Origin: Rhodospirillaceae bacterium
Lineage (GTDB): Bacteria; Pseudomonadota; Alphaproteobacteria; Bin65
Length of the DNA stretch: 64,000 nucleotides
Reading direction: 5' to 3'
Assembly: GCA_028819475.1 (NCBI GenBank)
Contig: JAPPLJ010000065.1
Span: forward strand, 31,953-95,952
Shown here: piece after piece, positions 3,432 to 32,483 of the stretch
How the letters are laid out: each line of letters opens with the position of its first letter
Position numbering within the stretch: position 1 is the stretch's first letter
Made by a program: the position numbers and the translations under genes
Notes under the pieces: model-generated
Told to the model about the DNA's origin: nothing
Databases searched by the model: none
The model's input: only the letters and a program-made list of their open reading frames with translations

Positions 3432-5475
<2,044 letters not shown>

Positions 5476-6594: not shown

Positions 6595-6828
6595 ATGTCC
6601 CTTACGGTCAATGTTGCGGACGCGAAGGCCAAACTCTCGCATCTCATTGCGCAGGCTGAGGCCGGCGAAGACGTCATCATCGCGCGTCACGGCGTACCGG
6701 CTGCCCGGATCGTAGCGCTGAACAGCCCGGTTGCTGAAACAGTTGCGCTTATCCGTGCGGAGCGGGCCCGGCGGCCGAGAGTATCGGCTGCGGAAATCCG
6801 CGCGGCCAGGGATCAGGGGCGCGCCTGA
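6595..6828 (+). CDS. VapB/Phd-type antitoxin
   Basis: 77-aa antitoxin of the Phd/YefM-like fold, with N-terminus LTVNVADAKAKLSHLIAQAEAGEDVIIARHG. The first part is a DNA-binding domain and the C-terminal tail (from about residue 55, rich in Arg/Ala) would wrap the toxin. The stop overlaps the toxin start (TGATG). The 155-bp region before it is AT-rich compared with the rest of the window and probably holds the operator. Confidence 0.9.
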   Translation: MSLTVNVADAKAKLSHLIAQAEAGEDVIIARHGVPAARIVALNSPVAETVALIRAERARRPRVSAAEIRAARDQGRA

Positions 6829-7229
6829 TGGCGATCGTCATCGATGCGTCGATCGCTGCTTCGTGGTGTTTCGAGGATGAACAGGCCACGGCGTCCGATA
6901 GGGTCCTGAACGATCTGCCTCGGGTCGGCGGTGCGATCCCGGCACTTTTCTGGCATGAGATTCGCAATGTGCTGATCGTCAACGAAAGGCGCGCAAGAAT
7001 TGACCCGTCGGATAGCGCGCGATTCCTGATGCGTCTCCGGAATCTTCGTCTGCACCATGACGACGATCATGACGAAGAGTCAGTCATGGGACTCGCGCGT
7101 TCGCATACTCTAAGCGCGTACGACGCCGCTTATCTGGAATGCGCACTGCGCCGCGGAGATATCCTGGCGACGCTGGACCGGTCTTTGGCAACCGCCGCCA
7201 TCGCCGAGGGTGTATCCGTTATCCATTGA
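6828..7229 (+). CDS. vapC: VapC-type PIN-domain ribonuclease toxin
   Basis: 133-aa PIN-domain RNase. The acidic metal-binding residues are at D6 (IVIDASI), E44 (FWHEIRN), D99 (SAYDAAYLE) and D117 (ATLDRSL), in the usual order for VapC. Its ATG overlaps the antitoxin stop, so the pair is translationally coupled. The toxin is intact. Confidence 0.93.
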   Translation: MAIVIDASIAASWCFEDEQATASDRVLNDLPRVGGAIPALFWHEIRNVLIVNERRARIDPSDSARFLMRLRNLRLHHDDDHDEESVMGLARSHTLSAYDAAYLECALRRGDILATLDRSLATAAIAEGVSVIH

Positions 7230-18197: not shown

Positions 18198-18263
18198 GTC
18201 ACCGGCCGGCCCGGTCGTGCACCGGTTTGGATTTCAGCATCGGCCGGAGCCGATCCCTTATCC

Positions 18264-18394
18264 GTCATTTCGACCGCAGCCCCGGATTCATCCGGGGCGG
18301 AGCGGAGAAATCTTTCACCTGCGGAGCCCGGTCCAAGGCACTGATCTGGAAAGATTTCTCCGCTGCGCGGCAACGCCGCTCCGGTCGAAATGAC
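18264..18394. repeat. Dispersed inverted-repeat element, copy 1
   Basis: Ends are inverted copies, gtcatttcgacc at 18264-18275 and ggtcgaaatgac at 18383-18394. Inside are a second inverted pair (ggagaaatctttc / gaaagatttctcc) and a small ccccggattcatccgggg hairpin. A further ggtcgaaatgac end occurs near 18420. A second copy lies at 29124-31692, split by an IS. The rest of the 18134-18631 gap shows no gene. Confidence 0.75.
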
Positions 18395-18631
18395 GGGTAG
18401 GGGGCGGCTGCGCCGCTCCGGTCGAAATGACGGGGCGGGGCGCGGAGGGGCGAGCGTTTTCGTGCCGCCGCACACTCTGTTCTTTCAAACCTACACACGA
18501 CCGGCCGGCTCGACTCTTCTCATTTGCCGAACCGGTCGGGGACCGGCGCCATACGCGCCCTTGCCCTTCCCGGCCGAAGGTGCGATTGCCGGCCCTGCCA
18601 CGTTTCCCGACGACCGACCCGAAGGGCGCCC

Positions 18632-28618: not shown

Positions 28619-29031
28619 GCGCCGAACTGACGAAGCTGTTCACCGAGCATACCGTCCCGATGGCGCGGACCCTCGGAATCGAACTGGTCGATGTCGATCC
28701 CGACAGGGTCGTCGCAAAGGTCGAGGCGCGCGCAGAGCTGAGCACGTCGGCAGACGCCATGCACGGCGGCGCGATCATGGCGTTGGCGGATACGCTCGGC
28801 GCCATCGGCACGGTCGCCAACATGCCGCGCGGCGCGCGCACCACCACCATCGAGAGCAAGACCAACTTCTTCCGGGCGATCCCGGTCGGCTCGACGCTCA
28901 CCGCCGAAGCGACGCCGCTGCACAAGGGCCGCACGACCCAGGTCTGGCAGACAAGGCTGACCGGCGAGAACGGCAAGCTGGCGGCGCTGGTTACCCAGAC
29001 CCAGATGGTGCTGTACCCGGAAGGGGAGTAA
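28615..29031 (+). CDS. PaaI-like hotdog thioesterase
   Basis: 138-aa hotdog-fold protein starting at GTG 28615 (GTGA overlap with the isomerase). The motif SADAMHGGAIMALADTLGAI matches the PaaI/YdiI active-site helix, with HGG at its centre. It probably releases CoA from dead-end acyl-CoA products of the upstream ligase pathway. It is the last gene of the run before the repeat and IS. Confidence 0.88.
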   Translation: MSAELTKLFTEHTVPMARTLGIELVDVDPDRVVAKVEARAELSTSADAMHGGAIMALADTLGAIGTVANMPRGARTTTIESKTNFFRAIPVGSTLTAEATPLHKGRTTQVWQTRLTGENGKLAALVTQTQMVLYPEGE

Positions 29032-29123
29032 CGCGGCGGGTCTTGTTCCGGTTTGACGCTTCGTGTCCGCCGGAGGCGGTTCCTCTGTCTGTCGTTTCGA
29101 CCGGAGCGCCTACCCTCCTTCCC

Positions 29124-29226
29124 GTCATTTCGACCGAGCGAAGCGAGTGGAGAAATCTTTCACCCGCGATGCCGGGACCGGCGCGCCGAAGGAAAAGGAT
29201 TTCTCCGCTCCGCCCCGGATTGAATC
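29124..29226. repeat. Dispersed inverted-repeat element, copy 2, left part
   Basis: Begins gtcatttcgacc and contains gtggagaaatctttc and ggatttctccgctccgcc, as in copy 1 at 18264-18394. It ends in ggattgaatc, where the IS begins. Joined to 31672-31692 it gives an element of about 124 bp with the same ends as copy 1. A further gtcgtttcgacc end lies at 29091. Confidence 0.7.
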
Positions 29227-29239
29227 GGCAGTGTTACAC

Positions 29240-29268
29240 TTGACATACCAAAAATAACCCCATATTAG
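29240..29268 (+). promoter_or_regulatory. Transposase promoter inside the left inverted repeat
   Basis: TTGACA at 29240-29245, a 17-bp spacer and TATTAG at 29263-29268, then AGGAGG at 29273 and the ATG at 29288. The -35 box lies in the terminal repeat, so transposase binding could repress its own transcription (inference). Confidence 0.65.
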
Positions 29269-29287
29269 GGTCAGGAGGTAGTCACCT

Positions 29288-30226
29288 ATGGCCCGTTCAA
29301 TCCTTTCCGCCCCTCACTTCCACAACGAAGATGCGGCTTTCTCATACGTTGAAAAGACCCTGTGGCCGGACGGCCCCTATTGCCCGCGCTGCGGCGCTAC
29401 GGGCGATCATATCCGCAGGTTGAAGGGCAAGACGACCCGGAAGGGATTGCACAAGTGCTACGCCTGCCGGAAGCCGTTTACCGTCAGGATCGGGACGATC
29501 TTCGAGTCGTCGCACCTGCCCTTACACATGTGGTTGCAGGTCATTCATCTGATGTGCGCCAGCAAAAAGGGTATTTCGACCCGACAGATACAGCGGATGC
29601 TTAAGTGCAGCATGAAAACCGCTTGGTTCCTGACCCATCGTATCCGCGAGGCCATGAAAGACGGGTCGCTTGGACGGCTGGGTGGCGAAGGCAAGGCCGT
29701 CGAAGCCGACGAAACCTTTATCGGCGGCAAGGAAAAGAACCGCCATCGCAGCAAGCGCGCCAATGTCCGCCTCGGCGGCAGTTGGGGCAAGGAAACCGTC
29801 CTGTCCTTGGTCGAGCGCAACGGCCGCGTCCGCTCCATGCACGTTGCCAGCGTCACCGCCGCTAATCTGCGGCCGATCTTGGTGGGCCAGGTTGACGGCA
29901 AATCGAAACTGTACACCGACGACGCAGGCCAGTATCGCCACATGGGCCGGGATTTCGCCCATGAGCATGTGAACCATAAGGCCAAGGAATACGTTCGCGG
30001 AGACGCGCACACCAATACCGTCGAGAACTATTTCAGCATCCTGAAGCGCGGAATCACCGGCTGCTATTTCCATGTCAGCGAAGCGCACCTGCATCGCTAT
30101 TTGGCAGAGTTCGATTTCCGGTACAGCAACCGCGAGGGCTTGGGTGTGGACGATACGGCGCGCGCCGAGGCGGCGCTGAAGGGCTTCCGTGGCAAGCGCC
30201 TCACCTACGAAACAGCTAACGCGTAA
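29288..30226 (+). CDS. IS1595-family transposase
   Basis: 312-aa transposase. An N-terminal zinc ribbon (YCPRCGA ... CYACRKPF) is followed by the MerR-like region MWLQVIHLMCASKKGISTRQIQRML. The DDE-type catalytic core shows VEADETFIGGKEKN, LYTDDAGQY and HTNTVENYFSILKRG. The pattern is that of IS1595/ISXO2-like transposases. It looks intact, so the element may still be able to move. Confidence 0.93.
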   Translation: MARSILSAPHFHNEDAAFSYVEKTLWPDGPYCPRCGATGDHIRRLKGKTTRKGLHKCYACRKPFTVRIGTIFESSHLPLHMWLQVIHLMCASKKGISTRQIQRMLKCSMKTAWFLTHRIREAMKDGSLGRLGGEGKAVEADETFIGGKEKNRHRSKRANVRLGGSWGKETVLSLVERNGRVRSMHVASVTAANLRPILVGQVDGKSKLYTDDAGQYRHMGRDFAHEHVNHKAKEYVRGDAHTNTVENYFSILKRGITGCYFHVSEAHLHRYLAEFDFRYSNREGLGVDDTARAEAALKGFRGKRLTYETANA

Positions 30227-30347
30227 GCGATCGCCGAACGAGAAAACCCGGTACTGGCGCGCATGGGCGCGGCTGCCGGCGCAAGACCCGCAGATGGCTT
30301 TCTTCTTCGTCCTTGAGGACTGAAGGGCTGTCGGGTATTGTCTCGCC

Positions 30348-30503
30348 ATGAGCAAGAAACCCACACCGAAGCCGCGCCCGAAGCCCGACGATCCCGAACA
30401 ATACAGACGGTTTATCGAAACCGCCAAAGAGGTCGAGGCAGATGGCGACGCTGAGGTACTGGACAAAGCCCTCGCAGAGATTGCCGCCCATGACAGACGA
30501 TGA
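30348..30503 (+). CDS. Small charged IS passenger protein
   Basis: 51 aa, beginning MSKKPTPKPRPKPDDPEQYRRFIETAKEVEADGD in two blocks: a Lys/Pro-rich head and an acidic helix. It overlaps the next small gene by 14 bp, and both lie between the transposase and the DUF3800 gene. The function is unknown. Small genes of this kind accompany some IS1595-like transposases, which supports it being real. Confidence 0.55.
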   Translation: MSKKPTPKPRPKPDDPEQYRRFIETAKEVEADGDAEVLDKALAEIAAHDRR

Positions 30504-30759
30504 AAGGGATATGGCCGTTGGCCGCTTGATTCGCCTGAGAGCGGAGACCGAGCAGGATCTGAAGACTGCACAGTGCGACGCGGCGCAGCACCTCCGAACG
30601 CTTCGGAAATGGATCGCTTGGTTTGAGGCCGAAGGCGACGGCGTCGAGCGCCCCATGTCCAGCCCCTCCCATGAGGAACTTGAGGCAACGGCGCGCGCCC
30701 TCCGGGATACCAAGAAGCGGCTGGCCAACCTTGAGTTGGGCATTATCGATGGCTGCTAA
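30490..30759 (+). CDS. Small helical IS passenger protein
   Basis: 89 aa from ATG 30490, overlapping the preceding small gene. It is predicted mostly helical and possibly coiled-coil (RLIRLRAETEQDLKTAQ, EELEATARALRDTKKRLANLE). The function is unknown; it could act with the transposase or with the 51-aa protein. Confidence 0.5.
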   Translation: MTDDERDMAVGRLIRLRAETEQDLKTAQCDAAQHLRTLRKWIAWFEAEGDGVERPMSSPSHEELEATARALRDTKKRLANLELGIIDGC

Positions 30760-30823
30760 CGATCATCCGTCGGCAAACGTTTACTGAGCCGGGACTTTCC
30801 TTAATACCCAAGACGCCGATAGT

Positions 30824-31621
30824 CTATTGGTAATCGGTCTTCGGATGTGCAACCATCATAGGAGACAGTTTGTCGTATAGCGGCGGATTATGAGGATGAT
30901 TGATTAAGTGGCCCCTTATGACAAAGGCACAGATATCCGCTAGTTGAAGAAGCGGAGATTGTTTCTTTTCTGCCCAATGCACCGTATCCCGAATGTGGCG
31001 AAGGGGTAAATACTTCCTGTGCCAGCCGCGGCGTGATAAGGTTTTATTTTGCGCCCATAACTGAACGTCACGTACAACTTTCTTAACTTCAGGGCGATCT
31101 TCCGCAATAAGGAGCGCGATTTCGTCGGGCCAAATGTCTCTTAGTACTTTTTCAACCACACACACACACTGGAAAAATGCAAGAGAGTGGACAACAGCGT
31201 CACGCCCTCGTTCGTTAATAGTAACATCTGGCGGCGTCGCAATTAGTTCGTCGCGCGGGCAATCGCCATAAACAACCGGCAGGTCGAATCTTCCGAGGGT
31301 CTCGATTAGGTCGAGCAAAGTTTCGAGCCGACGATCAAGAGGCCACACATCACGATCCTTAAAGTATTTCGTTGCACTCCAAATGTTAGTGGCGTGAAAG
31401 AAAAAACTGTCTCGATCCGCTTCCGGTATATGCTTTCTAACTAGATATGCCAGATGTTCTTCAACAGCGATCATCTGGCGGTCGCCGTCAACGATAACGC
31501 CAGCGACCACGGCCAACGGCTCCTTCCTTGAAGTGCCGCTTTCATCCAAGTAGACAACGCGCACGAGCCGCCGCCCCGCTAATGGCGAGCCGTCAAACGC
31601 TCGCACCAATGGTAAATTCAT
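30824..31621 (-). CDS. DUF3800 protein (IS passenger)
   Basis: 265-aa DUF3800 protein, a family predicted to have an RNase-H-like fold. VVYLDESGTSRKE near residue 23 holds the first acidic residues, LLIAEDRPE lies near 170 and LLQLADICAFVIRG near 228 holds the last conserved aspartate. It starts 41 bp inside the right inverted repeat with GGGGAG before the ATG. Its AT-rich, rare-codon composition differs from all neighbours, pointing to foreign origin. Similar proteins are found on phages and mobile elements; a nuclease or defence role is possible but unproven. Confidence 0.8.
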   Translation of the reverse strand: MNLPLVRAFDGSPLAGRRLVRVVYLDESGTSRKEPLAVVAGVIVDGDRQMIAVEEHLAYLVRKHIPEADRDSFFFHATNIWSATKYFKDRDVWPLDRRLETLLDLIETLGRFDLPVVYGDCPRDELIATPPDVTINERGRDAVVHSLAFFQCVCVVEKVLRDIWPDEIALLIAEDRPEVKKVVRDVQLWAQNKTLSRRGWHRKYLPLRHIRDTVHWAEKKQSPLLQLADICAFVIRGHLINHPHNPPLYDKLSPMMVAHPKTDYQ

Positions 31622-31662
31622 TTTACTCTCCCCGGATTTGGTACGGCAAGTGTAACGTTGCC

Positions 31663-31692
31663 GATTGAATCCGGGGTTCCGGTCGAAATGAC
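31663..31692. repeat. Target duplication and right end of split repeat
   Basis: gattgaatc (31663-31671) repeats the bases left of the IS. 31672-31692 completes the interrupted dispersed element, ending ggtcgaaatgac. Confidence 0.7.
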
Positions 31693-31727
31693 GGAAAGGG
31701 CAGGCAGCGCATCCCGGGCGAAGCGCC

Positions 31728-32483
31728 CTACCGCCGGCGCTTGCGTTCCCGCGACAGGGATTCGATGACGCCGCGCAGGCCGCGGACTTCCGAATCGGTC
31801 AGCTCCGCCCGGTGGAAGATGTTGCGCAGGTTGCGCACCATGACCGGGCGTTTCTCCGCCGGAATGAAATGACCGGCCTCGTCGAGCGCGCCTTCGAGAT
31901 GCGCGAACATGTTGAGCAGATCGCTTTGCAGCGCCGGCCCGTCGGGCGTCCCGGCACCCGAACCCGGCCTGGCCGCTTCCGCTGCCGCCGGACCGGCGCT
32001 CCACCATTCCCAGCCGACCAGCAGCACGGCCTGGGCGAGGTTGAGCGACGTGTGCGCCGGATTGAGCCGGGCCTCGATGATCGTGCCGGCCAGGACGACG
32101 TCGTCGTTGTGCAGCCCCTTGGATTCCTTGCCGAACAGGATGCCGTTGCGCGCGCCCGCCGCTTCGGCCCGGCGCATCGCGATGCCGGCCTCGCGCGGGC
32201 CGAGCACCGGCTTGTTCATGTCGCGCGGCCGGGCGGTCGTCGCATAGACATGGTGCAGGCCGTCCAGCGCCGCAGCGGCAGACTCATAAAGCCGGGCCGT
32301 TTCCAGAATTGGTTCGGCGCCGGAAGAGGCCGTAACGGCGGTCTCGCTGGGCCAGCCGTCCCGCGGATTGACCAGCCGCAGGTCGGACAGGCCGCAATTC
32401 ATCATGGCGCGCGCGGCCGTACCGATATTCTCGCCAAGTTGCGGTTCGACCAGGATGATCGCGGGGGGTTCGCTATCGGCCAT
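31728..32483 (-). CDS. trmJ: tRNA (cytidine/uridine-2'-O-)-methyltransferase TrmJ
   Basis: 251-aa SPOUT methyltransferase acting on Nm32 of tRNA. PAIILVEPQLGENIGTAARAMMNCG, LFGKESKGLHNDDV and SLNLAQAVLLVGWEW form the knot and SAM site. The C-terminal helical part (RNIFHRAELTDSEVRGLRGVI) matches TrmJ. It overlaps cimA by 11 bp, so the two are probably co-transcribed. Confidence 0.92.
   Translation of the reverse strand: MADSEPPAIILVEPQLGENIGTAARAMMNCGLSDLRLVNPRDGWPSETAVTASSGAEPILETARLYESAAAALDGLHHVYATTARPRDMNKPVLGPREAGIAMRRAEAAGARNGILFGKESKGLHNDDVVLAGTIIEARLNPAHTSLNLAQAVLLVGWEWWSAGPAAAEAARPGSGAGTPDGPALQSDLLNMFAHLEGALDEAGHFIPAEKRPVMVRNLRNIFHRAELTDSEVRGLRGVIESLSRERKRRR

Follow-up and report, generated by a model that had tools for sequence, protein, structure and literature searches.

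Passenger-bearing elements of the IS1595 family were reportedly set apart as 'transporter IS' by Siguier, Gagnevin and Chandler in 2009, with tISCpe8 and MTnSag1 as examples. The element analysed here shares with that class an IS1595 DDE transposase, inverted repeats, a target duplication and extra genes, but differs from it in having its own conserved gene for a 51-aa accessory protein, and a swappable slot that is often taken by a nuclease or defence-type gene; tISCpe8 is a lincomycin-resistance element and MTnSag1 is mobilizable. IS1595 elements with extra genes unrelated to transposition have been described as a class (PMC3129680, PMC5704250), and a passenger-bearing IS1595 transposon is a known kind of element. 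DUF3800, a passenger of the present element, has been described as an RNase H-fold nuclease accessory at some type V and type VI CRISPR loci (PMC10910872, PMC12669027). We found no description in the searchable literature of the 51-aa hallmark protein, of a swappable slot in which DUF3800 is the commonest gene, or of insertion into one type of hairpin, and literature searches that paired IS1595 with DUF3800, with a cargo of defence genes or with targeting of LexA boxes returned nothing directly relevant. The explanation that we favor, to which as a whole we give a probability of about 0.6, is that the locus, most likely from an alphaproteobacterium, is a transporter IS sitting in a hairpin, with a swappable slot in which a DUF3800 nuclease rides as an anti-invader passenger.

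The window (the whole stretch of DNA that was analysed, 64,000 nucleotides) contains a complete IS1595-family element of 2436 bp at 29227-31662. An earlier note on this DNA had given the coordinates 29218-31671, which are exact, since they run from target duplication to target duplication (Table 1). Its description of a complete IS1595-type transposon with terminal inverted repeats of about 26 bp, a 9-bp target duplication and an intact transposase was also borne out: 22 of 26 bp are identical between the ends, the noted duplication is perfect on both sides, and the transposase matches both PF12762 (ISXO2-like DDE) and PF12760 (zinc ribbon) above cut-off, with its DDE motifs (DETF at residue 141, YTDD at 209, HTNTVEN at 241) and CxxC pairs intact. 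Because the target palindrome ends GA...TC, a duplication of 8 bp plus one ambiguous base is indistinguishable from one of 9 bp, and because the target is itself palindromic, the inverted repeat at the element ends extends to 40 bp. With either length of duplication, the element has the inverted repeats and the target duplication of ∼8 bp that mark the IS1595 family, and duplications of 7-9 bp are reported for the IS1016 subgroup (PMC12561309). The hexamer TTGACA, at 29240-29245 inside the left terminal inverted repeat, would make a plausible -35 box for tnp; it is absent from the list returned by a consensus promoter scan.

Table 1. Positions of the element, its genes and its target in the window.
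Feature	Coordinates	Strand	Evidence or remark
Uninterrupted host repeat copy	18255..18431	-	77% identical across junction
Left arm of interrupted target hairpin CCCCGGATTGAATCCGGGG	29213..29226		6 exact intact copies elsewhere in genome
Left target-site duplication GATTGAATC	29218..29226		identical to 31663-31671
Left terminal inverted repeat	29227..29252	+	22/26 match to right end
IS1595-family DDE transposase, 312 aa, intact	29288..30226	+	PF12762 1.7e-35, PF12760 1.3e-10
Conserved small accessory protein, 51 aa, two predicted helices	30348..30503	+	profile matches ∼65/80 relatives
89-aa gene	30490..30759	+	best read from ATG 30490; 14-bp overlap with 51-aa gene
DUF3800 protein, 265 aa, predicted type-2 RNase-H-fold nuclease	30824..31621	-	PF12686 2.5e-10
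Right terminal inverted repeat	31637..31662	-	22/26 match to left end
Right target-site duplication GATTGAATC	31663..31671		identical to 29218-29226
Right arm of interrupted target hairpin	31663..31676		uninterrupted target copies exist

Eleven IS1595-type transposases are encoded in this genome, only one of them of the window's kind, and the others are at most 41% identical to it. The element is apparently transposition-competent, and its single genomic copy was counted against the favored explanation as regards recent mobility. Six other IS1595 elements are present on other contigs of the same genome (loci L100, L102, L103, L104, L106 and L107), all longer than a bare element (1.6-4.3 kb) and with good ends and 8-bp duplications; four of the six carry apparent DNA methylase genes, as judged by eye.

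Judged from the sequence, the insertion lies in the loop of a hairpin of REP-like type that is dispersed in the genome. When the flanks were joined across the insertion site, the dispersed host repeat was restored, and since uninterrupted copies of it also exist, the element represents a true insertion. The core palindrome CCCCGGATTSAATCCGGGG was found in six intact copies in the genome and at ∼50 sites within 2 mismatches, compared with 0 for a reversed control, and the 123-bp core of the host repeat gave 55 matches. The host target as a whole is a dispersed palindromic repeat of roughly 105-180 bp.

A scan of 84,980 species genomes yielded 80 relatives of the transposase. Using an automatic search for ends and duplication, 52 relatives were bounded (a poor match, L017, was set aside), which together with the window gave 53 sites. 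The earlier note had placed the passengers inside the element, a view that bare relatives, with inverted repeats around the transposase alone, would have overturned; the bounded relatives from genomes all measured 1.9-4.2 kb, and 0/52 were bare. A bare element of 1042 bp was seen in another genome, for a more distant relative whose transposase is 37% identical. A transposase tree joins the window to L012 and L013, and all three carry DUF3800; they fall within a clade of 23 rows. In the window's lineage, nine members are bounded (the window, L012, L015, L016, L018, L021, L022, L025 and L029), and each has the hairpin type CCCCG|GA-N5-TC|CGGGG as its site. Over the 53 sites, a stem of at least 8 at the duplication was found in 15, compared with 0.28% of random positions.

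Elements of other lineages showed a different association. Eighteen of the 53 elements, all of other lineages, lie exactly 4 bp from the motif GTTC-N7-GTTC or GTTC-N7-GAAC, called where at least 7 of the 8 motif bases matched, compared with 0.1% of random positions, and five further elements lie 7 bp from such a motif. GTTC-N7-GTTC is the alphaproteobacterial LexA box (PMC8565304, PMC9578287), and a GAAC variant has likewise been used for LexA (PMC6473078). The 4-bp cases (L028, L046, L047, L056, L059, L063, L076, L079, L082 and L090, and in Mesorhizobium L040, L050, L055, L064, L072, L074, L081 and L084) are not independent, because about half are Mesorhizobium insertions near one gene. By eye, genes neighboring the LexA-box insertions include recA (L028) and mmcB (several Mesorhizobium loci), and those on the opposite side a comM-like gene (L076) and an rmuC-like gene (L059). 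Neither a LexA box at +4 or +7 nor a hairpin with a stem of at least 8 was found in two more sets of bounded elements, 8 from viral contigs and 11 from other genomes, so that the LexA rule is not general, and either is lineage-specific or those sites differ. We therefore regard LexA-box targeting as a lead rather than a general rule. In the Mesorhizobium flanks of L055, L057, L072, L074, L081 and L084, the duplications directly adjoin the ends of further related elements, apparently in tandem arrays of such transposons at or close to a single hotspot on the mmcB side.

The two small genes of the element differ in conservation. Matches to the 51-aa profile (Table 1) lie on the transposase strand, nearly all of them within the element region. 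Among the 17 other best matches (E up to 7e-11) from 385 genomes spanning the class, 15 had a transposase of this group in the surrounding locus of ∼3 kb. The protein belongs to no Pfam or NCBIfam family, and its model consists of two helices of low confidence (pLDDT 72, pTM 0.37). The 51-aa gene is best read as a transposon accessory gene, a hallmark of the group, rather than as cargo. No relative of the 89-aa gene was found in the 80 loci, and the 385 genomes contained one weak relative (E 5.5e-4), near another IS1595-type transposase; this gene is nearly private to the window copy. The two small overlapping genes of the earlier note are thus unequal: the 51-aa gene is real and conserved, and the 89-aa gene has the 14-bp overlap and a gene-like codon-position GC pattern with almost no relatives. 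Likewise, its three passengers all lie inside the element, but they do not form one set, since the 51-aa gene is near-constant, DUF3800 interchangeable and the 89-aa gene nearly private. Its term 'AT-rich passenger DNA' fits the DUF3800 gene, with 50% GC, but not the other element genes, with 58-61% GC, compared with 68-69% for the neighbors.

The DUF3800 gene faces inward from the right end of the element, and its product matches PF12686 at 41.7 bits, compared with a curated cut-off of 21. By profile search, a DUF3800 gene is present in 16 of the 80 relatives, always in the element region, and absent from 285 kb of flanks; where such loci were bounded, it lay inside the element in 12/12 cases (p 4e-8 by base share). 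The 51-aa gene is also present in 15 of these 16 relatives, and the combination that was thought to be perhaps new is instead a recurrent arrangement of DUF3800 with the 51-aa gene. Exclusivity of DUF3800 to IS1595 elements was considered and rejected, as a class-wide search gave three solo genes, close relatives of the window DUF3800, without an IS1595 transposase. Solo DUF3800 genes (L096, L097, L098, L114, L115 and L116) have a lower GC content than their surroundings, and a search for MITE-like ends at three solo relatives and at three further DUF3800 genes from the window's genome gave nothing convincing. At L096, repeated copies of an SDR-type gene 3' end (∼5100-5240 and 6655-6900) flank a gene for a 458-aa protein with a DGQHR-like motif by eye, which suggests that this region is a separate small integrated element.

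Residues D26, H76, A228 and D229 are invariant across 15 DUF3800 sequences, and the conserved acidic residues of the family (D26 and D229, with H76) are thus present in the window protein. Its AlphaFold model (pLDDT 82.5, pTM 0.84) agrees with the RNase-H-like assignment made earlier from the letters, and specifies it further as a type-2 RNase H fold. Structures of RNase HII/H2/HIII made up the top 25 of the VIA-align list, with Z scores of 8.9-11.4 compared with 7.9 for the next family, and ranked above Argonaute and RNase HI; the comparison with 1eke (RNase HII) gave Z 11.4 over 166 residues with an rmsd of 3.3, and the best Foldseek match had an E value of 1.6e-4. Model residue 20 is aligned with residue 1 of both 1eke and 1uax, and from these aligned ranges, we infer that D26-E27 would overlie the N-terminal Asp-Glu of RNase HII. 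A search of solved structures by sequence gave no relevant match, no plasmid match was found, PADLOC returned 0 families for the window DUF3800, and Rfam (28900-32000, E up to 5) reported no RNA motif beside the gene.

As comparison of sister-element sequences indicates, the gene in the slot varies while the transposase, the ends and the small protein stay constant. DUF3800 identity does not track transposase identity (Spearman 0.10, p 0.23), which argues that cargo has been exchanged; L013 has a closely related transposase and a very different DUF3800, and L054 and L073 have more distant transposases and similar DUF3800s. A Pfam run on 106 cargo-region proteins (104 from relatives and two from the window) found DUF3800 in 12, PIN in 3, DCD in 2 and NYN in 2, along with single cases that include an adenine methylase, DUF1828, HNH and GmrSD. 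Strong PADLOC matches (E <1e-15) were obtained for 9 of the 106 cargo proteins compared with 1 of 106 flank proteins (Fisher p 0.019), an enrichment that is real but modest, as most cargo proteins have no match. The PADLOC matches include PD-T4-10_B (L090), PD-Lambda-2_C (L064), HEC-09 (L057 and L074) and PDC-M24B (L022). A further cargo family recurs in six loci (L016, L023, L028, L034, L056 and L083), and the three members inspected by eye (L016, L023 and L083) have an Rx4H motif, as in HEPN RNases. At L030 (5041-7258), the cargo consists of both PD-Lambda-5 subunits, A and B (PADLOC), and at L072 (5231-7131), DUF3800 is accompanied by the anti-phage gene BstA (also PADLOC) at nearly its full length.

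Several other explanations have to be set against these results. That the right half of the locus is unrelated flanking DNA, and the transposon a bare IS1595 element only, has practically no chance of being right, because a right end with matching inverted repeat and duplication falls beyond the DUF3800 gene, and restoration of the host repeat on joining the flanks speaks against this already refuted reading once more; we found no points in its favor. It is also very improbable that the 51-aa and 89-aa genes are a toxin-antitoxin or addiction pair stabilising the element. The two small genes do overlap, and among 27 relatives of the 51-aa protein, a single one gives a weak match of RelB type (E 0.0047), but there is no match to a toxin family, and the genes are not conserved as a pair, the first being nearly universal in the group and the second almost private.

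A role for DUF3800 in transposition itself, by clearing RNA-DNA hybrids at the ends, or by cutting the empty donor site for retention in the manner proposed for TnpB-type nucleases, would account for the position of this predicted nuclease gene next to the right end in most relatives that have one, and for the fact that no other cargo is as common. We consider this unlikely, since DUF3800 is missing from ∼40 bounded relatives whose ends and duplications are intact, the slot is occupied in other elements by unrelated genes, and other DUF3800 genes stand solo in chromosomes. Nor is it probable that the cargo was acquired at random and hitch-hikes as neutral DNA, without function for host or element. 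The GC content below that of host DNA and the varying content among close relatives fit such a history, but a few classes recur (DUF3800, PIN, NYN, DCD, methylase and known defence genes), even highly divergent DUF3800s retain their catalytic residues, and the flanking DNA of the same loci contains no DUF3800. In the favored explanation, of a transporter IS with an anti-invader passenger, the transposase, perhaps with the 51-aa protein, would insert the element into the hairpin; DUF3800 would cut RNA, RNA-DNA hybrids or DNA as a metal-dependent nuclease, its active site resembling that of RNase HII; and it would serve host or element as a passenger of the anti-phage type, thereby paying for the persistence of the element. 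The negative PADLOC and Rfam results for the window DUF3800, the modest size of the PADLOC enrichment and the solo occurrence of close DUF3800 relatives weigh against this explanation. Defence genes in sister elements support the suggestion of the earlier note that a nuclease-like passenger could protect element or host, and an anti-phage or defence role for DUF3800 seems the likeliest.

More tentatively, and at somewhat less than even odds, we propose that an undescribed IS1595 group marked by the 51-aa protein carries defence nucleases of one or a few genes interchangeably, and installs them at dispersed hairpins in the window's lineage and at LexA boxes in several others. If so, the transposon would build defence sites in miniature, which in some hosts would lie beside DNA-damage genes. 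The results suggest that single defence-type genes are shuttled by very small transposons. They also give DUF3800, a family with a nuclease fold whose function is not established, a concrete setting in which it can be tested. With one hairpin type in the window's lineage and LexA boxes elsewhere, IS1595 target choice becomes directly testable, and the 51-aa protein is a candidate specificity factor for it.

The window protein shares with DUF3800 (PF12686) proteins the profile match, the DESG motif and the invariant D/H/D residues, and with the Cas12a2-associated DUF3800 an RNase H fold (PMC10910872). It differs from the CRISPR-associated proteins in being encoded by an IS1595 element, in having no CRISPR or TPR domain, and in resembling specifically type-2 RNase H (HII/HIII). 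Like insertion sequences that target REP palindromes, such as IS621, ISPpu9/10, ISRm22 and IS1397 (PMC1525189), the element has inserted at a fixed point of a palindromic repeat that is dispersed through the genome. As far as the available text of that survey goes, those reported so far belong to IS110, IS3, IS4 and other families, IS1595 not being among them (PMC1525189), whereas the window element is an IS1595 member. Tn7-like transposons are likewise reported often to carry defence genes as cargo (PMC8649781), but their transposase and targeting are unrelated, and the elements described here are ∼2-4 kb in length and carry between one and three cargo genes.
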